Shown: in pieces, positions 1,915-63,922 of the stretch
Numbering within the stretch: the first letter of the stretch is position 1
How the letters are laid out: each line of letters opens with the position of its first letter
From: Chionoecetes opilio
Taxonomy: Eukaryota > Arthropoda > Malacostraca > Decapoda > Majidae
Assembly (NCBI GenBank): GCA_016584305.1
Contig: JACEEZ010020432.1
Coordinates: forward strand, 1-64,000
Reading direction: 5' to 3'
DNA: 64,000 bases
Translations under genes and position numbers: made by a program
The notes under the pieces: model-generated
Databases searched by the model: none
The model's input: the letters and a program-made list of their open reading frames with translations, nothing else
Told to the model about the DNA's origin: nothing

Positions 1915-2584
1915 CAGAGGCTAGGGCACACAAAACCGTTAATCCGACTAATCGTAATTAAACGAAGTTAACATTATTCCGTTAACGATTTTTAACTGTT
2001 AAGTTAACTTTGGAAAATCATTATCGGACTAATTAACGTCGTTACATTTAACTTCCCGTTAACTAACAAGTCCGACTAACCCAATTTTATTAGTTTATAC
2101 TAATATTGTGAGTCTATTTTAAGTTTTTTGTCACCCTATTTCTTGGCTCTCTAAATCGCCTTAAAAACCTATAACAGCCTGGCCAAAACTATGAATCAGC
2201 TTTTTTAGTTTTTTTGTAAAAGTTAAAGCTATAAAATCTCGCCCTGTTTTTTCTTTTTTTTAAACTCTAAAAGCAAAAAAAAACATATAGTTTTGGGTTC
2301 TTATACAGCCTTGTAAAAACCCATAAAGGTTGATTTTAAAAGTTTGGCACTTTTCAATGGGAAGTGTTAAGGTTGCTCTTATTTAGAGCAAAAACTGATT
2401 TTTTCTTTTCTTTACTAGGATAAAAATGAACGTTTTAAAAAACGGTTTATCCGAGACTTCTCGTTACATTTTAATAGATAATTTAACTGAGTTAAGGTTA
2501 TCGAAGTAACTTTTTTAGAAACCGTTACGGAGTAACGGTTAACGAAGGTTAACTTTGTTGATTAACGGCGCCCCCCAACCACTG
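1915..2584. mobile_element. hAT-type MITE
   Basis: The segment starts CAGAGGCTAGGGCAC and ends GGCGCCCCCCAACCACTG, which read inward as imperfect inverted ends each followed by CGTTAAT. The flanking 8-mers are GGTTTCAG (1907-1914) and GTTTTCAG (2585-2592), a 7/8 match with the 8-bp target duplication known for hAT transposons. The interior is AT-rich with many TTAACG motifs and has no coding potential, so this is a non-autonomous copy. A chance pairing of the flanks cannot be excluded. Confidence 0.55.
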
Positions 2585-2769
2585 GTTTTCAGCATAAATT
2601 TATCAAGCATGCAGGTGTTTCTACTATGATGTCTACTTTAAGAAGAATAGTTGTGGGAATTTAAGGTCAAATACATATTTATTCTATGTGCTGTAGATTT
2701 ATGTTACCTATCAATTCAAACCAGGTATCACCGACACCAGTCATTCCACAGCGTAAAATCAATAAACTG

Positions 2770-3560
2770 GATACTTATCGGTGGGATAGTGGGTTGCATT
2801 ATGGCTGTAGGCGACTTTTGATCAATACTGCAATGGATCTTGTGATCCGATGGGGTCGCCGGGACTCGAGGCCCGCCCTCAGCTCTTTTCGTGAATGACA
2901 AGAGCGGAGGTGGAGGCTTAATTCGGGGCGTCAAATATGGTTCATCACACCAGCAACTGACTGCGCCAAATTGGTTATCAGTTTTGTATTCTAACACGGT
3001 CCTACTTGGTTTTATCACTAGATATGCTACCAAAATTAAACCGTATGTTACAAACTTGCTTCTGTGTAAAAGAGAAAGATGTAATTCCCATGAGGGCTCT
3101 GGAATGATACTTTGTAGACAAGAACGTCTATTAACACAATAAATGTTATCTTAGGGAGGGTCGGGGTCATTGTACTGATTCTCCCAAGGTGGGCGAAACC
3201 CACGCAGCCGCTACCACTATCCTATGACACGGGAGAATCATGTCAGGTGGCCATAGAATCTTAATGAGGCGGCGGCCAATGACCCGATTCAAAATCAAGG
3301 TGCTAAACTTATTTAAAGTGGCAATGCTTATAAACAACTGGGAAAGGGGAATATTAACTTATCCTATCCCAGTACTAATATTTACTTAATTGACCTTACA
3401 TATACCCAGATTACCATTACACATTATAGATACATATCCCTAACGACCCCCCTCTATTATGAGCGGGCGGAAAATAATCTCACTAGGGGGGAGGGGGGGG
3501 GGAAACAAACTACCACTCTACCAATTTATGGAGATGAGTTGTTTGGGGATAATTTCCACA
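2770..3560. repeat. LTR-like direct repeat, copy 1
   Basis: This stretch is repeated in the same orientation at 7121-7853. Shared landmarks in order are 'ATCGGTGG(G)ATAGTGGGTTG', 'GGTCGCC', 'AGAGCGGAGGT', 'GGGCGTCAA', 'GAGGGCT', 'AAGGTGGGCG', 'GGCGGCCAATGA', 'GGGAATATTAA', 'TTATCCTATCC' and 'CTCACTAGGGGGG'. The copies differ by many small indels. A direct pair of about 750 bp separated by about 3.6 kb fits LTRs, but no primer-binding site or pol domain was found between them. Confidence 0.45.
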
Positions 3561-4257
3561 TGGAGGCCGGCGCGAAAATTGAAGTTACGCCATGTGACAT
3601 CACCCCAGCCACATAGCGCCTGCGGAACATTGCAATTAAGTGGTTTCGGCACGTGGTCTTTCAGCTATTTTAAAATAATAGTCTTGATAGAGGTACAGTG
3701 AATAGATGCCATATACTTGATTCCGGGGGAGGAGAGTTTTATCTCCTACTTTGTAGATATCCCCAGTATAGTCGACACCAGATTGACATCAAATGGGTTA
3801 ATAAGTATCTCGTATCGGCGGAAATTCAGGGGGAAGTAAGTCTAGGAGACTTAGTCTACACTCAGATATAATATTTAATGAGAGATGTGAGAAATCATGT
3901 GAGCTGCCCTGTCTACCCTGATTTATTCCAAAAATACACCTGATATCGGCCTAATATTGTAAGCTATTCCCGGCCTGTAATGAGTTCTTATGAATCTCTC
4001 CACCAATAACTTTTAGTACGATGATGGTCGTTTGTGGAATTAGTTTGGAGGGAGGCAGGTTTTATTTGGAAGATCGCTTGAAAATTTTTCGACATCCGAC
4101 CAACCGAATAACCTCTATGATCAAGGACACAGACCAATATGGTCAATTGTTCCGTATGGGGTGGACCTGAAGCCAATAGCTGATATCTCCTCAGGAAACC
4201 CGCTTCGTATGGTTTCTGAGACAAAACTTCAAAGAGATCAGGAGATATCCCTTTGAT

Positions 4258-4460
4258 TTAACCTGAGTGGAATATTAACTTGTCCGGGCGTATTAACCTG
4301 GCAGGAGTATAACCCTGCCAGGGGAATGATAAACCTTGCTCAGGGCAGTAGTATCAACCACTGCAGGGAAGTAATCAACCTTGCAGGAAGTATTAACCCT
4401 GCAGGCGGATATTAACCTGCAAGGGAGTAGTAGTATTAACCCGTGCAGGGAGTATATTAA
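4258..4460. repeat. Degenerate tandem repeat with TATTAACCCTGCAGG core
   Basis: About ten imperfect units follow each other, each built on 'AGTATTAACC' plus 'TGCAGGG' or 'TGCCAGG' and spaced roughly 17-24 bp. Examples are 'GGAAGTATTAACCCTGCAGG' and 'GGATATTAACCTGCAAGG'. It has no coding frame, and unit length drifts between copies. Confidence 0.6.
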
Positions 4461-5206
4461 CACAATACAAGAAAAAACCTTCTATGTCATCACAGGATCT
4501 GGGATCAATTCAGATTCCCATTAGTCATATCTTCAGATATGTTGAACTGATGGAAACCAGATTAGGATATTATTCACATCTGCAGCCAGGTAGGGGGCCT
4601 TTTATTTTAATACCATAATCCTGGTATTCAATTTGAGGTTGCTATGGACCGCGACACATATTATTAGGTTTTCATTAGGTTTGGCAATTATTTCATTGAG
4701 GAAGCTGGAATACCACTGTCCTCTAAAACCTCTTATTGTGTGGGCAAGAAATAGTGGTTGCTATGCTCTGGGTAATTAAGAGGGTTGTGCTCATCGGACT
4801 CGGTGAATACTCTCCCTGTTTCGACGCGTATGGGTAGTAATGTGGGATGGGTCCCATTAACCTTACCACCAGCACTAGTGGAACATTGAGCACGTTTGTA
4901 TTTTGCTTACCTTCATTAGGTAACGCCCAAATAATCGGCCTCCTATTATTAATGGCAAGGGTACATCAACGTATTTGAAGGTATTACTAACTAGTCTGTA
5001 CACCATTATCCCTCAGCATTTCAGCTGTGTATCTTTTAGTCCAGAAACAGTTTAAACTCGTATACCAAATATTTTGGACTACTACAGCAGGCTACCCTAC
5101 ATTTTATCTTCTTAATGGTACTAGGGGTTGAACTATGTCATAGCGTGTGAGCCTCATTGATTGGCGAGAAGCGAAACCTGATATGGCTATGTTTCACTTG
5201 TAATTA

Positions 5207-5440
5207 TGGACCCCCCCCCCCCCCCCCCCCCCTCTCCTTCCCTCTCCCTCTCCCCTCCTCCCCCCCCTCCCCCTCCCCCCCTCTCCCCCTTCCTCCTTCC
5301 TCTCCTCTCCCCCCCCCCCCCTCTCTCCCCCCCCCCCCTCCCTCCCCCCCCTCCTTCGCCCCCCCCCCCGCTCCGCCCCCCCTCTTTCCCGCTCTCAGTC
5401 CCCTCCCCCCCCTCCCCCCCTCCCCCTCCCCCCGCTCTGA
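5207..5440. repeat. C-rich low-complexity tract
   Basis: More than 200 bases are almost entirely C and T, beginning with an uninterrupted run of C. Open frames through it encode only Pro/Ser/Leu and are artefacts of composition. Confidence 0.92.
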
Positions 5441-7120
5441 CTTATATCATCCTCCGACGGGCACGCGTCTTCGCTATGTACATGTCACTCTACCCTCCCT
5501 CTCCGGATCCCCCCCCCCCACACCACAACCCCCCTCCCGCCACATACACGCCCATCTCTTTCTCCTATGCTATAAGGATCTTTGTGCCCCACGTCAAACA
5601 TTGTCTTTACTTGACTGCATTACCATTATGACGGGCACACCTTCAACTCGGCCATGTTGGAAACAGCTGCTGAATACTCTTATTAGTGACCTTTCCATTC
5701 GTGGAGTAACCTACTGTAGGGTCTGAAGGATATATCACAGTAGGAGAAAGAGCGATGTTATGAACAGATTGTTTCCATTCCTGCAAGTTGCTTAAGCTTA
5801 GGCTAGGGCATGCATTTGAAGCATGTTACCTACGGAGAAAGGTTATAGGCAATTAACCAAGGACGCAATTAAACCTTCAACTCGTAGTGTACCAATCTGT
5901 AATAGATATTACGTGTGGAGGTGACGTATTTCACCATCACATAAAAGGGACACAATTTATTATTCGTACTTCCCAGAAGTCGCCCGTGGCATATAGGGTT
6001 TTATCTATTATTTGAGTAGGTCTAAGTGGGTTTACCGGGTAGCGCTTGAGAATGTGGGAGTTTGAATTCTAATGACAGGGGCTGTTTTATTTGCGTAACA
6101 GGCGCAGGATAACTACACTAGCGAGGATCTTTTAAACTCTGAGGGTGGATGATATAGCTGTTACCCTCAGCGTAAATAATAGTTGACTCCCTGTGGGGGG
6201 GTTTCTTGCGTAATACCTTGCAAGAGGATACTGTTGGGTAAAGAAGCTTTAGCTGTGAGGATGGAATATTGCGCATCACTCAGTAATCCCGCAGATTCAA
6301 TTAGTTACTTTATCGAGATTAATATTGGAACATTCGTTGTTCATGATTGATAACACATATTTCGAATCATTTCTTTAATCCCCAAGTTTGTGTTCTTAGA
6401 TTTAACTTTTAGATTTGCAGTAGAGAGCCTTCTCATATTTTCCCATTTAGTTTTTAGCTTTTAGCAGACCTCGAGTGTTTTTTAAAATAGTTATAGTCTA
6501 TAGGGGTGGTTTGGATGATCCCAGCGCTTCTATCACAGCCACATTATATAATAGTGTCAGCCAACCAATTAGCAAGCTAATGGATGTTAGTTCCCCTTCG
6601 GTCATGATTTTAATTGATTAACTCAAATGAGAGTATTAATGCAAGGTTACGTTACTAAAAACATGTTAGTATGATAATTAATTATATTATAAGTGCGGGG
6701 AAAGGGGAGGAAAAAGCTGTGGCTGGCCTAACAAGGCGGCATAAACCAGGCCTATGGCCAACCCCCAACCTTTATGTGGTTATTACAAGACTAACTAGTA
6801 CGTGTAGCCTCTGGAATGTATCTAATACCACAGGGTGAGGCATATGGTAGTGAACAGCTGAGTCATTCGGGACGCTTTCGAAGCAACACCGCCTCCTAGC
6901 TCATAAACCAGCGGTTGTGGGTAGGCTCATAATTACCTCACTTAAAGACGCACCTTGAATCACATGAAATCACTCCAGGATGTGCCTGACTCGGGGGCGG
7001 GACCAATGTGGGGAAAGTTTAGTGCACATAAAATATTTAAATCTGAGTGTCTACCTATTCAATCAAAAACATGGCTAACACCCGACCACAATCATCCCAG
7101 CTAAGTGTACAACTATAACA

Positions 7121-32054: not shown

Positions 32055-32258
32055 CTTGGTGCTTAGTTTTGGCCGAAGCCAGCACCCCGGAGAGCAGGTC
32101 ACAAACCCCGGCTAACACCCGGTACCCATTCACTGCTGGGTGGACAGGGGCTCGGGTTTTAAGAAAACAGCCCATCTGTTTCCGCTCCGCCTGGGGATCG
32201 AACCCGGGACTTCTCGGTTGTGAACCGAGCGTGCTTCCCCTACACTACGGAGTACCCT
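32055..32258 (-). mobile_element. SINE with tRNA-Val-like head (family B)
   Basis: On the minus strand the head, 32254 to 32183, folds as a tRNA. It has acceptor pairs CTCCG/CGGAG, an anticodon stem CTCGG/CCGAG around a loop TTCACAA whose anticodon would be CAC (Val), and a B box CCCGGGTTCGATCCCC. The tRNA-unrelated body follows, with 'CTGTCCACCCAGCAGTG', 'TGGGTACCGGGTGTTAGC' and 'CTGGCTTCGGCCAA'. The body recurs without the head at 32515, 33411 and 48180. Absence of CCA and the attached body make it a SINE rather than a working tRNA gene. Confidence 0.7.
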
Positions 32259-33269: not shown

Positions 33270-33636
33270 ACCTAGTTTTGCTTCCCCCTTTTGCTTCTCT
33301 CCCAACAGAATACTACGTGTGTGGGAGAACGCCAGACCACAGGCTTTACCGACAGCATCAGCTGGGTGACTCCCAACTCAAGCTCGAAGGTCCTCTCCTC
33401 TTCTGTCCTCTAGTTTTGGCCGACCACCCTGGGAGGCGGGTCACAAACCCCCGGCTAACACCCGGTACCCATTCACTGCTGGGTGGACAGGGGCTCGGGG
33501 CATTTTCAGGGTATTTTTGGGGGGAGAAAGTGAGTCTTATAAGCCGTGACATACGTTACACCTTGCACCAGACAAAATAAGCATTTTTACAGTGTTTTCA
33601 ATAACTGAGTTTCGCAATCCTCAAGTTTAGCGCTAT
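33270..33636. mobile_element. Left flank: fragment of the CCCTCCCGAGTTTCGCG element with SINE B piece
   Basis: This flank corresponds to 48085-48480 with the same order: 'GGGTGACTCCCAACTCAAGCTC', the SINE B body (33411-33505), 'GAGTCTTATAAGC', 'AATAAGCATTTTTACAG', 'GAGTTTCGC' and 'GCGCTAT'. At 33636 the similarity stops and resumes at 36872, so this is the disrupted host copy of the novel element's target. Confidence 0.75.
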
Positions 33637-34046
33637 TAGTGTGGTATGACATGTCATATAAACAGCTCCCGTGGGATTTGAATGCCAAAATTGATTTTAT
33701 TGGTTTAACTGGTTCATTTGGGGTCAAACTATTGGAAAATGATGGGGTGCAAATTTTCTGACCCCTCAACCACCCTCTGGGGGGCCGTTCCATTTTGGGA
33801 CCCCCCAGAACCGACTGAATTCCTAACTCCTCTAATAATGGACAGATTTCTATGATCTTAAGGTCGCTTTTGGGGTTTTAGCTGATGCAGAGTCCATTTG
33901 TCATGTTTTCGAGGCGACCGGAAGTGCCTATCATCGACTTCCGGTTATGTCAATGGCAAATTCAGGGTTAGTATCGTCATTATCATGGGAGAAATTCACC
34001 TATGCATGTAATACCTCTTTTTCATGTTTTTCAGGCACGATAAGAC
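33637..34046. repeat. Left terminal inverted repeat of the unclassified transposon
   Basis: About 410 bp, the reverse complement of 36474-36871. Inner boundary is at 'TTTTTCAGGCACGATAAGAC'. A GGGGGGCCGTTCC block and CGACTTCCGGTTATGTC lie within it. Confidence 0.88.
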
Positions 34047-34197
34047 AACTGGTGACGTCTATTTTGCTTTCAGAATGCCCTGTTAATAGTTAAGGATGAA
34101 AAAGTATATCATGGAATGTAAATCTATTGCTCAAGTTTCTTTGATATATATCTTTTTTAGGTTAGGCGCTGAGATGCGGTGAATACGATAATCTACA

Positions 34198-36000
34198 ATG
34201 TCCGGGAACAGTGTGTGCATCATCTGCAATGGGGGTGCCACTTCTTGCAAGAGACTGATAAACAATCCTTATATGATTGCAGAGTTTTTTCTATGTTGTG
34301 AAGAGCGACTGTCTTTGGGTCAAAAAGACATCAAACAACTCAGTGATCGTCTACCTAGCTTGGATGATGCGGCCCGAAAGGCTGTGCATTATCACAGCGA
34401 ATGTCAAAAGCCCATTGTCAACAAGGGCATGATTGAACGGCTCAAGGCCAAACGATCTCTGTCTGATTTCCAAGCCTGTCTTTCTCGAGGACCAGGACGC
34501 CCTGGCAGTTCGTCTGAATCTGTTCGTCCTAAAAGAACAAAACTCGTCCCCAAGGCAGAGGTGTGTCTATTCTCTTACTGCAGCTTTTGCCCTAATGACT
34601 ATTCTGAACCGCTCCACCGTGTTTTCTCCGACACGATGGGTGAACATTTCCTCAAAATAAAGGCCAACACTCAAGATGACTCTGTCAGAACATGTGTGTC
34701 AGATTTGGAGGGTGCTGGAGATGCTTCTGCTCTCGAGAAGTACTATCATCGGAATTGCTTGCGATCTGCTCAGCGTACCTACACTCTAAAGCACAATAGT
34801 AATGCTCAGCTCATTTGCTTTCTGTGTGATGAAGAGGTGATTATCTCTATTCAGTACACCCTCATTGATGCGGATTCAACCCTGAGTATGGCTGAGGTGA
34901 ATGGTAAATATCTGTCCATCGTGAAGAGGTACCAGATGGAGATCACGGAATCCACAAACTACCGCAAGTATCTCAGAGGGCACATTTCTGAAAGGCTTCC
35001 AAAGGTGCAGTTCGTCAAATCGGTGCGGAAAAATGAACCCGACAACCTCGTCCTCCCTACAACCATTAGCAAGGCAGTGGAAATTTGGACTTCACTACTG
35101 GATAACGACAGCACAATTTTCCAGTTGAAGAACACGGCCAACATTCTACGCCACGAAGTAATGCAACACAGAAACTGGTCCTTCTCTGGCAGCTTTGATG
35201 ACTTCGAACATCCTCCCTTGCTCCAGTTCTTCCTAACACATCTTCTATTTGGCCCTCATGTTCTCACGGTGTTGGGAATGCACAATGAAGAAGTGGACAA
35301 AACTGGATGTTGCCTCCCAATTTCTAATCCAGAACACTCGGAGTGATCGCCAGGTCATGCACCAGCCAAAGAAGGATAGCGGATTCCAGAAGACTGTCCA
35401 GACACCCCTCTCAATAGGGTTACCTCTTACCATCACTCCAGAGTGCGTGATAAGAATCTAGTCAAGAATCTATCAGAGGTCTACATTGGGAGCGATTATC
35501 AGATGATCCTATGTCTGGAAAAGCGTGTGGAGCAAGGTGTTCTCCAGAGGATGAAGGACACCGGAGGATTCTGTCTGCCTGATTTCGTGAAGAAAGGGGT
35601 GAACGCCTGGGTTGCTGTTGATAACATCGACCTCTTAGAAGATGCGCCAACTGGACAGAACACATTTCACGGCACAGTGGTCGTGATCAACCAACGAGCA
35701 GAAGAAGGAGATCCCATCAACCAGCCACTTGCCATTCCAGACAAGCTTGTCTCCCCGTCACCACTCAAGTTTGAGGTCAAGTACATAGAAGAGCAAATCA
35801 TCAAAACCAAGCCAATACTATTTCAAGTCTACCAGCTTGGACTGAGGAAACATCTTGCAACAACAGACTTTACTCGCACTTGGGCACTTGCGAACTACCT
35901 CGCTACTGTCGACAGCAGTGTTGAAACCCCAGTTGACCGACCTGGCGAGAATAAGGAGAACCAAAGTATTGACGAGCAGCCAGTTCAAGCTCTAGATTAA
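34198..36000 (+). pseudogene. Cys/His-rich protein of the unclassified transposon, two frame changes
   Basis: The first frame (34198-35346, 382 aa) starts Met-Ser-Gly-Asn. It contains repeated Cys2...His-x2-Cys modules: C7-x2-C10 with H66-x2-C69, then C128-x2-C131 with H184-x2-C187, and a third pair C207-x2-C210. Similarity-type landmarks then move to another frame (about 35300-35430, 'DRQVMHQPKKDSGFQKT.PLSIGL'). They return to the first frame for a last part (to 36000) holding 'GSDYQMIL', 'VAVDNIDLLEDAP' and 'FHGTVVV'. I recall comparable uncharacterised proteins (CxxC/HxxC modules, then a 'VDNID...FHGT' block) as widespread in invertebrate genomes. I know no proven function. A transposase role is inferred from the TIRs. 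The frame changes near 35300 and 35430 could be decay or sequencing error. The frame lies between the TIRs, with AATAAA 270 bp downstream. Confidence 0.68.
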
Positions 36001-36269
36001 AGTCCCAAAAATCCTGAGACCTCTATTCTGTCAGTGACAGAACGGATCAAGAGGGATGCGAAGCCAGTTAAGGAAGAAGTGTTGCCAGCTTGGGCTGCAA
36101 CGAAGTCTCTGCTGTTAACACGATCCTGTCACAATCGTTCCTATACCTATGATGTATACGTATTATCATGCAATTTATTGATAAATGTCTTCTATTTTGA
36201 ATGTTTTTTTTATCATTACATGTATTAGCATTGATGTACAGTTTTGTTGAGAATTTTATTTGTGATGGT

Positions 36270-36275
36270 AATAAA
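36270..36275 (+). terminator. Polyadenylation signal of the transposon gene
   Basis: AATAAA in GGTAATAAATGATTGTG, 270 bp after the stop codon and before the right TIR. Confidence 0.5.
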
Positions 36276-36473
36276 TGATTGTGTATTTTGAAATGTCAAT
36301 CTTATTTATTATATATGCAATGAAACATAATATTATACACACTACAGATACAAATAGTGTATGGGCTAAATTCGAGCAAATTACATGTACACCAATATTC
36401 ATCACACTTGGGTAGTCTTGGCATACTTACCTTTTACCAGAACATTTTGAATGTAAAATAGAGTGCACCAATC

Positions 36474-36871
36474 GTCTTATCGTGCCTGAAAAACATGAAA
36501 AAGAGGTATTACATGCATAGGTGAATTTCTCCCAGGATAATGACGATACTAACCCTGAATTTGCCATTGACATAACCGGAAGTCGATGATAGGCACTTCC
36601 GGTCGCCTCGAAAACATGACAAATGGACTCTGCATCAGCTAAAACCCCAAAAATAACCTTAAGATCATAGAAATCTGTCCATTATTAGAGGAGTTAGGAA
36701 TTCAGTCTGTTCTGGGGGGTCCCGAAATGGAACGGCCCCCCAGAGGGTGGTTGAGGGGTCGGAAAATTTGCACCCCATAATTTTCCAATAGTTTGACCCC
36801 AAATGAACCAGTTAAACCAATAAAATCAATTTTGGCATTCAAATCCCACGGAAATACACCATACCACACTA
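36474..36871. repeat. Right terminal inverted repeat of the unclassified transposon
   Basis: This is the reverse complement of 33637-34046, starting GTCTTATCGTGCCTG and ending CATACCACACTA. Confidence 0.88.
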
Positions 36872-36914
36872 ATGCCTTGTGAAGAAAGCAAGCGCCAAAC
36901 TCGGGAGGGTACTG
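36872..36914. mobile_element. Right remnant of the disrupted host element
   Basis: ATGCC, then GAAGAAAGCAAGCGC, then AACTCGGGAGGGTACTG and TA. This equals the right end of the 46519-48533 element (GAAGAAAGCAAGCGCGAAAC, then TCGGGAGGGTAGTG, then TA). Confidence 0.75.
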
Positions 36915-44315: not shown

Positions 44316-45702
44316 GTACTCGTCAAAAGTATGCGGCGCCCTGCTCCCGCTCCCGCACAACAAACAATACATAAGGAAACTTATAGAAAATAATGTATTA
44401 TAATTACCTTTTAATTTGTTGGGTGGCCTTTGCTCTTCTTCACGGCTTGGAGGCGTCGGGGTAGTGAAAGAGCTAGGTTTCTTAGGTGTTCAGGTGAGGT
44501 GTTTGCCCAGGACTCACGGATGGCCTTCTCGAGCTTGGGTATGGAGCTGACGTCTTTCCCCTGCAGATCCTTCTTGACCATGTGCCAGAGGTTCTCAATT
44601 GGGTTGAGGTCCGGGCTGTTACCTGGCCAATCCTTTATGAAGGGTACCATGCAGTCATCAAGCCACTGAGTGACAGATTTGGCAGTGTGAGCAGGAGCAC
44701 CGTCCTGTTGAAACACACTGGCACGAGTGAGCTCGAAAGAATCTGGCAAATGTTCACAAAGCAGCTCCAGGTAAATAGCTTGATTCACTTTAAGGTTTTT
44801 AGGAAGCACAACAAGCTTGCCTAAACCTCTGCCAGAGAAACAACCCCACACCATAAGTGAATCTGGGTGTTTTACGGTGCTCTCCACATACTGTGATTCG
44901 AGGGGGTCACTGCCTGGGCGACGGTACACTCGAGCTCCTCGGTTACATGTCACAGTAAATGTTGCCTCATCAGACCACAACACTGACAACCAGTCACCAT
45001 CAGTCCAAGCAAGATATTTCTTGGTGAAGGTGACCCTGCGAGCTCTCTGTGCGCGTGTAAGAAGTGGCTTCTTCAGTGGCTTTTGGCTAGTATAACCCAA
45101 CTCGTGCACTCGGCGAGATACGATACGCACAGACACTGCACCAAACACTTCAGGGTTGTTTTCCTTCAATACCCTTGCTGTAACGCGAGGGGTACTCTCC
45201 AACGAACGTTTTGGAACGTTCACAGACCTATGAGAAATCTTCCTGGGATGACCAGGCCGAAGTTTCTGTGATGGCGTTTCACCGCTCTTTTCCTCTCTGA
45301 AACGTGCCAAGTACTTCATCACTGTTGACTTAGCCACCCACAACAACTCACTTATTTTTTTCGTTTGGTGGCCTGCATCCTTTAAACCAATGATCTGAGC
45401 AATGGTTTCTTTGCTTAGTTCCTTGGTAGGTGCCATAATAAAAATATAATACCACAATCACCACTGATAAGTGCAAAACACAAGGCAGGGTCGCAGAGCA
45501 AGACACAGCAGACAACAGCTCACTCAGAAAGCCTGGAGGCTACTGGCGCCTCGCCTTGTGTCGACGGCTCAAGGTTGCCGTGATGTCATCTTCGTGCCGC
45601 ATACTTCTGTCTAAAATATTTCACCCGCATGAACATCATTCTTTCTTTGCCATAAGTATGCGGCGCCTCGAGCAAGGCGCTGCATACTTTTGACGAGTAC
45701 TG
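44314..45702 (-). mobile_element. Complete Tc1-like transposon
   Basis: 1389 bp. The left end is CAGTACTCGTCAAAAGTATG, then CGGCGCC. The right end on the other strand is CAGTACTCGTCAAAAGTATG, then CAGCGCC, so the two 27-bp ends differ at one position. TA is present at both borders (44312-44313, 45703-45704), matching the TA duplication of Tc1/mariner. A second GTATGCGGCGCC copy lies at 45657-45667, inside the right end. The transposase frame on the minus strand is uninterrupted. Confidence 0.95.
44411..45436 (-). CDS. Tc1-like transposase, intact (DD35E)
   Basis: An open frame of 341 aa runs from MAPTKELSKE (45436). It is open in frame upstream to 45457, giving 348 aa, but MAPTK is the likelier start because Tc1-type proteins begin just before the first helix-turn-helix. 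The N-terminal half holds two helix-turn-helix segments with the RPGHPRK stretch between them. The catalytic part has D163 (VLWSDEATF, numbered from the longer form), D252 (FQQDGAPAH) and E288 (SPDLNPIENLW). There are 35 residues between the last two, thus DD35E rather than the usual DD34E. The length is typical of Tc1 (340-350 aa). It cuts and pastes the surrounding element at its TIRs. No stop or frameshift was seen. Activity is plausible but not shown. Confidence 0.96.
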   Translation of the reverse strand: MAPTKELSKETIAQIIGLKDAGHQTKKISELLWVAKSTVMKYLARFREEKSGETPSQKLRPGHPRKISHRSVNVPKRSLESTPRVTARVLKENNPEVFGAVSVRIVSRRVHELGYTSQKPLKKPLLTRAQRARRVTFTKKYLAWTDGDWLSVLWSDEATFTVTCNRGARVYRRPGSDPLESQYVESTVKHPDSLMVWGCFSGRGLGKLVVLPKNLKVNQAIYLELLCEHLPDSFELTRASVFQQDGAPAHTAKSVTQWLDDCMVPFIKDWPGNSPDLNPIENLWHMVKKDLQGKDVSSIPKLEKAIRESWANTSPEHLRNLALSLPRRLQAVKKSKGHPTN

Positions 45703-48319: not shown

Positions 48320-48423
48320 GTACACAGCCCTCAAGTTAACCTCCAGGGCCTACCATCCCACCCCTGGAGGTCACTGCCTAACGGCGCTGTAGGCACACAC
48401 ACCAAAAAAAAAAAAAAAAAAAA
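48320..48423 (+). mobile_element. SINE family A, 3' end only
   Basis: CAGCCCTCAAGTTAACCTCC, GGCCTACCATCCCACCCCTG, CACTGCCTAACGGCGCTG, then CACACACACC and poly(A). It has the opposite orientation to the copies at 46629 and 47239. Confidence 0.88.
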
Positions 48424-48619
48424 CCGGACTAAATAAGCATTTTTACAGGGTTTATAATACCCGAGTTTCGCGATCCGCGAGTTTCGCGCTATGCCTCCGG
48501 AAGAAAGCAAGCGCGAAACTCGGGAGGGTAGTGTATAGCAAAATACATAACTAATGGTAAAATATAGGTTTGGTTCCAGGACCCCATCAAAGACATGTTT
48601 TTCAAGCAAAAATAAACTG

Positions 48620-59725: not shown

Positions 59726-62700
59726 GTGAGTCTACAGCACACCAAGTATCCTGCTCATAACATAGTATATGCCACATCTAACATTCATTCATAGCACAGC
59801 AAGCATCCAGTTCCTAACATGGAGTACAGCACAGCATCCAACTCATCACATGGGGTATAGCACAGCATCCTGCTCATAACATGGGGTACAACATAGCATC
59901 CATCTCCCAACAGAATATCCTACAACATCTCCCTCCACAGTATCCTATATCCTGACATGCGCACGACACTGCACCCCCCCCCCCCCCCCCCGCACGCACA
60001 CACATGAGGAGGGAGGGGCCCGCCCCTTAAAAGTTAAGTTTAGGTCACAAACTACAGCACAAGATATATTGTCTAAGGCATGGAAACTGGCAAAGACAGA
60101 AGAATATAAGAAAATATGGATAAGAAAAGATATGAATGAGGAAGAAAGAGCCAGTTTGAATGTACTGTTTAAAAAAGCCAAAGAAAAAAACGAATTGAGA
60201 ACGGAAGAGGAAAACAGAAATTCTATTGGAGAGTTTTGGACCAAAAACTGAAGAAGTGGTATCTAAAAGGGAAAGAGTAAGAGAAGATAGTTCAAGGAAA
60301 ATGAAAAGGATGGCAGGTATCATACACAAATATAAATGGGCTAGTGTCACATTAACAGAAGTAAACGATTACCTGAGAGCCAAGAAACCAGACATATTGG
60401 GTTTAGTAGAAACGAAGCTGAGTGATTCTGAGGATGTGCCAGTTGGGAGGGTCAATATTATGTATGGAGGAGAAACAGAAATCAGAAAAAGGGAGGTGGT
60501 GTAATGGTGTTAACAAGAAAGGTGTGGTAGTAGAGAATGTGGAAAAAGGAGAAGGTATGTTGTTGGTGTTAAAGGCAGAGGTGTTGAAGGTAGAGTTGGT
60601 GATGAAAAAAGGAAGAATAAGAGACTTAGTACTCGTATACGTTCCACCTAAGAAAAATTATGGTAAAGAAAGAAGAGTATGGAGACATGATAAGAGACAC
60701 AGGCAAATGTTTAAAGAATACGATGGAAAATTTTGAGAACATAATTTTTGATGGGAGATTTTAATTGCAAAGAAGTCTGCTGGGAAGAATGGTATACTGA
60801 AGGAGGAGAAGACTCATGGGGTGGTAATTGTTGGATTTGGTAATGAATAACATTATGACTCAGTGGATAAAAGAGAATACAGATTCAGAGGTAGCGAAGA
60901 ACCATCAAGACTAGATCTACTATTGACGAAAGAACTGGAAGTAATTAGAAAAAGTAAATTATCAGTGCCCACTTGGAAAGAGTGACCATGGTACTTATTG
61001 AATTTGAAGTAAATGATAGCAAAAAAGAGGGGAGAAGAGAACACAAGAAAGGAAGATACAATTATGGAAAAGCAGACTTTGACTGATTAAGAACATTTTT
61101 CGGAGAGACAGACTGGAGTAGTTTCCATGCAACAAGGAGTACCCAGAAAAATGGGATGATTCATCCAAATTTACACAGAAGGAATAAATAGATATATTCC
61201 AAGGATGGTTATCAGAGAAAAGAAAAAGAATGAATGGTTTAACAGAAAATGTGAATTAGCAAGACTAGAAAGTGAAAAAACATGGAATAGTTGGAGGAAA
61301 AAAAGGAGGTATCACCTTGTGGAGAAGTACAAAACAACTAGAAATGAATATATAAGAATCCGAAGAGAAGAGGAAAGTAACTATGAGAAAAATATAATAG
61401 AAAAATGTAAGAACGAACCAAACTTTTCTATAGATATATAAATGGAAAAATGAAAAACAAGGAAGGAATAGTCGAATAGATAAGCTGAAGGTAGAAGGCA
61501 TAGTGTACGAAGATGCATTACAACAGGCTAAGGTGATGAATAAGTACTTTCAGACTGTATTTACAAGAGAAGGTGAATTTAAAACGAAAAATATAATAGC
61601 AAAAGAAAATATAATGGAAGACATAAAAGTAGACGCAATAGAAGTAAAAAGGCTAATGGAAAGTCAAGATGTGAGAAAAGCCCCGGGTCCAGATGGAGTG
61701 TCGAATTGGATAATGAAAGAGTGCAGTAACCAACTAACAGGAAAGTTACATAGTATGTAGTTATGTACTACATACATAATTGAGAGTTCACTTAAGGAGA
61801 GCAGAGTCCCGCTTGATTTGAAAAAAGCAAATATTGTGCCAATTCACAAAGGAGGAGACAAAGAAGAACCATTAAATTACAGGCCAGTATCATTAACAAG
61901 TGTAGTGGCAAAAATGTGTGAAAAAATTGTGAAGGACAGATGGTTGAAATATTTGGAAGAGACAAACACACTCGCAGGTGGTCAGTTTGGTTTTAGAGGA
62001 GGAATGTCCTTGTACAACGAATTTATTAAGCTTTTACTCGAGTGATCGATGTGACACAGGAAAGAGAGGGTGGGTCGATTGCATATACCTGGACCTAAAG
62101 AAGTCATTTGACAAGGTACCTCACAAGAGACTGCTCTGGAAGCTAAAACATGTAGGAGGATTGAAGGGTGGTTTGCTGAAGTGGATGGAAGACTTTTTGA
62201 GCAACAGAGAGATGAGAACAGTAATAAAAGATCAGAAGTCAGAATGGTGCCGTGTGATAAGTGGAGTTCCTCAAGGATCAGTTTTGGCCCCAGTGATGTT
62301 CTTGGTCTATGTAAATGATATGACAGAGGGAGTGAACAGTTATATGAGCTTATTCGCTGATGATGCTAAATTACTAAGAAAAGTAGAAAGTATAGAGGAC
62401 TGTGAGCATTTACAAAATGATCTAGATAAGATTTTCAGATGGAGTCAATGGAGGGCATTTTCCCTCCATTTTCCCAATTTTCAGATGGCCAATGGCCAAT
62501 CCGCCCCTAGTGGTGACCCTCGGGAGGGGCGTCGTATGGTGGGCGAGGCAACGCGCCCCCCGGCGTATGCCCGCAATGATTGTTTGATTGATTCTCTTTT
62601 CATATTGGTACTCCCCATTTACCCACCATTTCATCCACTCTTTCATCCCCTACTTTTCTATTCTTATCACCCTTCACAATCACCTTTCTTCCAGTCTGAA

Positions 62701-63922
62701 AACTCCACATTCATTCAGTCATTCAGGTCATTCAGGTCACTCCAAAATTTCATCATTTCATTCTTACCTTTCACTGTTTTAATGTTCACCCAAGCATATT
62801 TGACTATTTCAATTGTAAGAGACCTTCCATCTCCTTTCCTGCACTCTGCAGCACCTTAACCACGCTGGTGGGTCTCACTTAATCCTAACACATCCACTTT
62901 CACTCTTATACAACTAAAACCATTTTTCTCTTTCTAGCATTTATCACTCCATTTGCATAAAAACATACAGCCCTAATCCCCTCATTTATCCTGACTCTTT
63001 AGTTGCACTTAGCCATTAAATTCCCCACCTCTAAAAACTAGAGGCCACTGATGGGTGGCTAGTCCAATGCACTTACCCAGGGAGCAGGGTACCAGTTGGT
63101 CAAAGATTAAAAAAGCTAAAAACCAAAAACAGTAGATGGTTGCTGCGCCCTCCCTGTAACTTCCACCTTACAAGGTGTACTAACAGTGTGACCCTGTGAA
63201 GGTGGGGATGAGCTAGGATACCACCCGTGGGAGGAGTACCCCTAGTTGCTAGTCTTCTCTACCCAATACCCTGACTGGGTAGCTATGCATAGTTTTCTTG
63301 CTACCTCGCACCTCAGTTAACCTCATCGGTTACGATACTGCCACTATGCAAAGCTACCTTTTTATGCCTTTTACATCATCTTGGATATATATCAACTGTC
63401 TGAATTTTAACATTCACAGATGCAAAAATATGGATATTGATATCAGGCCTGCATATTTTGCACATGTAAATTATATTTTCCTGAAAACATTGAGGTATAA
63501 TGCAGATATGGCTGTCACCTTATTACATCCTCAGTGATGCGGATGTTTTCTGTCATTTGATCATATATGCTAACAGTTTTATGATCAGTATCAATAATTT
63601 CTAGCTTGTTAATTTGATGGCTACTATGTCACAAATTAAGGAAAAAAACTGATGTAAATGAGGATGCAGATATTTGGTACACCTCTAATATGATGATGTG
63701 TTAGCTTCAAGTGAAGTAACTCATTACAATGTGCTTTATTTTGCCATCTTGTGTTGAGTGTAATACATATGTGTGTATATATGTGTACACTCTTCAATAA
63801 GCCAGAAACATGCATGTACTTGTAAAGATTTCTGTGATAAGATACCTATGATTCGCACAACACTTAAAAGTAAGCATCAGGCCTTATCAAAATGGTCCTT
63901 TAATATAAATGGTGGTCCTCAG
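59726..63922 (+). other. Intron 3 of V-ATPase subunit c
   Basis: Donor GTGAGT at 59726, acceptor GTGGTCCTCAG ending 63922 (a weak polypyrimidine tract). It holds a C run at 59975-59990, a LINE (60055-62460) and otherwise (59726-60050 and 62461-63922) nothing recognised. 'ACAGCACAGCATCC' type phrases repeat around 59790-59880. Confidence 0.85.
60055..62460 (+). pseudogene. CR1/L2-like LINE, broken
   Basis: Frames in order give the end of ORF1 ('KIWIRKDMNEEERASLNVL', 60115-60170). The endonuclease start follows ('TLTEVNDYLRAKKPDILGLV', 'ETKLSD', 60349-60430). Then come the RT N-terminal region ('RKAPGPDGVSNWIMKEC', 61676), RT block 'LNYRPVSLTSVVAKMCEKIV' (61872-61932) and 'GQFGFRGGMS'. The last blocks are 'YLDLKKSFDKVPHKRLLWKL' (62086), 'ISGVPQGSVLAPVMFLVYVN' (62258) and the catalytic FADD (62352-62363). 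Stops and frame changes break the reading several times. It stops abruptly at 62455 before the C-terminal part. The FADD motif itself is intact. It is on the same strand as the V-ATPase gene. Confidence 0.9.

Follow-up and report, generated by a model that had tools for sequence, protein, structure and literature searches.

A broken, internally deleted DNA transposon of Chionoecetes opilio, a likely non-autonomous member of AcademX

The element, its ends and its coding remnant

The first 64,000 nucleotides of contig JACEEZ010020432.1 of Chionoecetes opilio (GCA_016584305.1), hereafter the window, carry a 3,235-bp element bounded by long terminal inverted repeats (TIRs). An earlier note on this DNA had proposed that the element encodes the transposition protein of an undescribed superfamily. 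We conclude that it is a broken, internally deleted copy, that it likely belongs to AcademX, the lineage of the Academ superfamily that encodes a nuclease, and that the protein of full-length relatives likely mobilised it in trans. The features are listed in Table 1.

Both ends of the element close with a perfect 12-nt outer match, TAGTGTGGTATG. A short stretch that differs between the two ends follows, and then arms (33669-34098 and 36422-36851) that are 95% complementary over 430 nt, which gives TIRs of about 450 bp in this copy. An empty site within the window spans the joined flanks of the element straight across the insertion point (85% identity over 114 columns) and reads GCGCTATGCC. The TIR ends are thus the true element boundaries, and the earlier description of a DNA transposon with long, well-matched TIRs at these ends holds, as dispersed copies with the same ends also indicate.

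The note had seen a single protein frame with three Cys/His modules between the TIRs. Alignment with 16 other copies revealed instead two frameshifts and one in-frame stop, so that what remains is three pieces (382 aa, a shifted-frame stretch and 185 aa) of the N-terminal part of a protein about 1,600 residues long. Two of the modules are conserved. The third, CFLC, is not: the residues behind it read R and S in four other copies (L009, L010, L025 and L027) and, together with column counts among relatives, these led us to reject it as a conserved module. The first catalytic Asp likely lies in DNID (35620-35631). Of the protein, this copy retains both N-terminal modules and the first Asp, and nothing past about residue 640 (P0001 numbering). 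The frame does belong to the likely transposition protein of the element, as had been supposed, but what the uncharacterised proteins of its kind are could not have been learned from this copy alone, since its deletion removed the second Asp and the Glu as well as the nuclease and the Cys-rich tail.

Table 1. Features of the element and its target sites in the window
Feature	Position	Strand	Remark
Whole non-autonomous element, 3,235 bp	33637..36871	+	TIR ends; paralogous empty site at 48423-48536
Left TIR	33637..34098	+	perfect tip of 12 nt, followed by 430 nt matching the right arm at 95%
Right TIR	36422..36871	-	
Left flank, TAT	33634..33636		one side of target duplication (3 bp in the family); empty relative GCGCTATGCC
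Right flank, ATG	36872..36874		duplicated part as seen, 2 bp (AT)
Open reading frame, 382 aa	34198..35346	+	N-terminal part of transposase; conserved Cys/His modules at 34216-34404 and 34564-34758
CFLC	34816..34827	+	third Cys module of the earlier note; not conserved in the family
Shifted-frame stretch	35249..35461	+	between the two frameshifts; middle of the same protein
Open reading frame, 185 aa	35443..36000	+	start of predicted DDE domain, VDNID...FHGT block; closed by the in-frame stop of this copy
Deletion junction	36139..36142	+	CGTT, CC filler, TATACC; 3,030 bp missing relative to the full-length element
Paralogous empty target site	48423..48536	+	flanks joined without the element, 85% identical

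Genomic copies, target duplications and the shared deletion

The 1.94-Gb assembly, in which the window is contig C15813, was searched with 400 bp of the left TIR. This gave at least 40 matches, from the 40 of 243 candidates that were scored, several being the two ends of one element, and 28 genome stretches (L009-L036) were fetched besides the window. Three of them hold the whole element (L009, 7.2 kb; L025, 6.4 kb; L027, 6.6 kb), with the protein between the TIRs and every frame broken. These copies bear on whether a host gene family, carrying a captured or inserted zinc-finger protein, merely lies between incidental inverted repeats. Homologues do turn up in cnidarians and a sea urchin, among predicted genes without a name. 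However, the position of the protein in these three copies, and the dispersed copies, which share their ends, have target duplications of their own and occupy sites with empty relatives, lead us to reject a host-gene origin, which we hold to be extremely improbable.

Target-site duplications (TSDs) were scored in the 28 stretches and the window. Eleven loci gave no pair: L018, L019, L020, L024, L028, L029, L030 and L034 had no usable second end, and L026, L031 and L035 no recognised terminus. A 3-bp duplication was found in 15 of the 18 copies with both ends (13 of 16 when counted by distinct flanks), against 8.3% of mismatched flank pairs taken as a control, and none of the 18 had a 4-bp duplication. 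The duplicated triplets were TAA, TTT, TTA, ACA, TCT, AAA, TGT and TAT; the copies without one were L013, L027 and that in the window. The AT dinucleotide border that the note had reported is consequently not the family rule but a 2-bp or decayed version of it, and we reject AT or TA as the target duplication of the family. At the window site the 2 bp are likely to represent TAT from which the junction has lost one T. A search with joined flanks yielded four matches spanning the insertion point among 84 hits. The empty relative of L021 (94.7%) fits a 3-bp duplication, ACA, except for four extra bases close by, while the match for L027 (75%, in L017) was too weak and was not used.

A few copies depart from this pattern. 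L013 has complete ends and, as judged at its right end, no matching duplication (taa / tac), so it is perhaps a recombinant of two copies. At L026 (330-9472) and L035 (3384-9642) the ends read ACACTAATAGTGTTTGTATG instead of TAGTGTGGTATG, and the inverted repeat extends into a short palindrome beyond the usual tip. In L018, two left-type ends point the same way at a distance of about 3.3 kb and have nearly the same flank, as if the locus or the assembly had been tandem-duplicated.

The window copy corresponds to L027 minus 3,030 bp (2517-5546 of the L027 element), with a CC filler at the junction; a further stretch of about 340 bp of L027 is absent from the window copy and also from L009 and L025. 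Allowing single base changes, the same junction was present in 15 of 19 aligned elements (the window copy and 14 others), the filler being CT in L022. These copies occupy 13 distinct sites, L015, L017 and L033 having common flanks, and mean pairwise divergence among 12 deleted copies is 3.7%. Since one junction recurs at 13 distinct sites, the deletion likely occurred once and its derivative would then have been mobilised repeatedly.

Deleted copies might have been kept because the N-terminal protein that they encode, truncated as it is, acts as a repressor of the full-length transposase, much as KP elements repress P elements. Both zinc modules persist in the truncated frame, which in principle could bind the TIRs, and the majority frame of 17 aligned copies has no stop. 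Yet an intact truncated frame was found in none of the 14 deleted copies with an alignable frame (L032, with no coding match, and L010, with a nested insertion, were left out), all of which have frameshifts or stops. Moreover, 215 of 299 singleton changes were non-synonymous, for 215.9 expected without selection (L017 and L033, whose flanks are those of L015, were not counted). Singleton changes thus fit neutral decay; we reject selection for a repressor, an explanation we consider highly improbable, and the window copy is likely a passive substrate.

Outside the element, the window holds a predicted tRNA-Val (cac) close to it (32182-32254, minus strand), an open frame of 348 aa (44411-45457, minus strand), which we take to resemble a Tc1-type transposase, and a frame at 61978-62859 (plus strand) that, from its motifs, is presumably a fragment of a non-LTR (non-long terminal repeat) reverse transcriptase.

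The full-length protein and its probable assignment to Academ

The full-length relatives in the same genome (6.4-7.2 kb) carry the frame-broken gene for the protein of about 1,600 residues. Its homologues, of which set A1 holds 28 and set A3 holds 40 of 54, are unnamed predicted proteins of invertebrates, among them Nematostella, Actinostola, Porites, Dendronephthya and one sea urchin, in agreement with the earlier remark that many invertebrate genomes have similar uncharacterised proteins. Two family proteins, P0044 and P0077, are filed under a bacterial bin (Sedimenticola sp. metagenome-assembled genome, MAG), likely as animal DNA in that bin.

Residues D476, D691 and E932 are conserved without exception among the 28 relatives. 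Structure prediction, which the note had suggested as a way to look for an RNase H-like fold with acidic residues, points to a DDE fold: the best alignments of the central model are with Hermes, ISCth4, Transib and RAG1 (DDE transposases and RAG1). The central domain is thus predicted to be a DDE transposase with an RNase H-like core, in which a long helical insertion precedes the Glu, as it does in Hermes and RAG1. Foldseek alone, run on the 985-residue central model, gave no significant match (best E 0.21). The C-terminal domain, in which further acidic positions are conserved, models confidently as a nuclease of the FEN1/Exo1/XPG fold and is predicted to be a flap-type 5′ nuclease.

Searches of Pfam and PDB with the sequences of the window pieces gave nothing useful, nor did a PDB profile search with A3. 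In the 28 relatives, Pfam at E 0.01 named DUF6589 (four members), TCR (one) and no other family. The DUF6589 match covers the second half of the DDE region in P0050 and P0052, and L027 matches it weakly (E 0.043). DUF6589, whose function is not known in Pfam, is likely part of this transposase; a literature search on it returned no paper.

Academ and AcademX are, as cited by others, reportedly due to Kapitonov and Jurka 2010 and Kojima 2020. The passages on Academ in the literature consulted treat it in lists, as HMM (hidden Markov model) profiles, as a bivalve or fungal component or through the TSD rule (PMC10799480, PMC10045372, PMC12210899, PMC10294476, PMC8290104, PMC4455052, PMC9783078, PMC9587614), and no worked-out transposition mechanism was found in them. 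One such passage has Academ entering Repbase from a 2010 report (PMC4455052). Another separates AcademH, with 9 or 10-bp duplications, from AcademX, with 3 or 4-bp duplications, a difference related to the encoded helicase and nuclease (PMC10045372). The family studied here has a predicted DDE/D transposase with an RNase H-like core, of which the window copy keeps the first Asp alone, a predicted nuclease without a helicase, and 3-bp duplications (2 bp in the window copy itself). AcademH does not fit, as duplications are of 3 bp and Pfam scans of the pieces and relatives found no helicase family. Predicted DDE transposase, FEN1/XPG-fold nuclease and duplication length together follow the AcademX rule, so the family is likely Academ and likely not a new superfamily, contrary to what had been proposed; this assignment follows the published description of AcademX (domains and TSD).

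A DDE transposase could also have been fused to a flap nuclease independently of Academ, in a superfamily still undescribed. The descriptive nature of the Academ likeness leaves room for this, as does the restriction of Pfam names to DUF6589 and TCR. On the other side, core, separate nuclease domain and 3-bp duplications fit the published rule jointly (PMC10045372), and element length is similar, 6.4-7.2 kb here and a mean of 5,565 bp for curated bivalve Academ elements in the part of PMC10294476 that describes them. We regard an independent fusion as very unlikely and retain AcademX.

Other superfamilies were rejected. Duplications such as TAA, TTT, ACA and TCT do not follow the TA rule of Tc1/mariner, and the lack of 4-bp duplications excludes the TTAA rule of piggyBac and Kolobok. 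The hAT target duplication is 8 bp, against 3 bp here. A C/DxxH motif between the second D and the last E is given as a rule for hAT in the relevant passage of PMC9587614, and no such column pair was present in at least half of the 28 relatives.

Proposed mechanism and comparison with known systems

In a simple model of transposition, the TIRs would be bound through the zinc modules at the N-terminus and through the Cys-rich tail, and the DDE domain would cut and join strands with a 3-bp stagger, by cut and paste. When the element is excised or integrated, the nuclease might trim a flap or the end of a strand. With both TIRs kept, the window copy could serve as a substrate, likely mobilised by the protein of full-length relatives; it could not be the enzyme, as the second Asp, the Glu and the nuclease are missing from it. 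RAG1 leaves hairpin opening to a separate nuclease of the host. More speculatively, Academ may use a two-nuclease machine, in which a RAG1/Hermes-like DDE core cuts first and the FEN1-type flap nuclease, covalently joined to it, takes away the displaced strand or opens an intermediate, setting the 3-bp duplication; we put this forward as a tentative possibility.

A known, little-studied superfamily would thus replace the claimed new one, with the element as an ordinary non-autonomous member, and a class of unnamed invertebrate proteins gains a likely identity. A domain plan can be proposed for Academ: zinc modules, predicted DDE core with helical insertion, FEN1-type nuclease and Cys-rich tail. 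The interesting part is the predicted fusion of a flap nuclease to a transposase.

Among known systems, AcademX resembles the family in the DDE transposase and encoded nuclease (both predicted here), in 3-bp duplications and in the long element, whereas 3 kb, with the nuclease and two of the three catalytic residues, are gone from the window copy. AcademH, placed in the same superfamily by the passages cited above, has a helicase and 9 or 10-bp duplications, neither of which was found in this family. The predicted DDE core is like the solved structures of hAT (Hermes), Transib, RAG1 and ISCth4, and the helical insertion lies between the second Asp and the Glu in our model; unlike in hAT, a conserved C/DxxH motif was not found in the family. 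Hermes, Transib, RAG1 and ISCth4 are not known to carry a fused nuclease domain and have other duplication lengths. Finally, FEN1, Exo1, XPG and GEN1 share the fold and the conserved acidic positions of the C-terminal domain, but identity is 7-15% in the rows listed and the nuclease is here fused behind a transposase.
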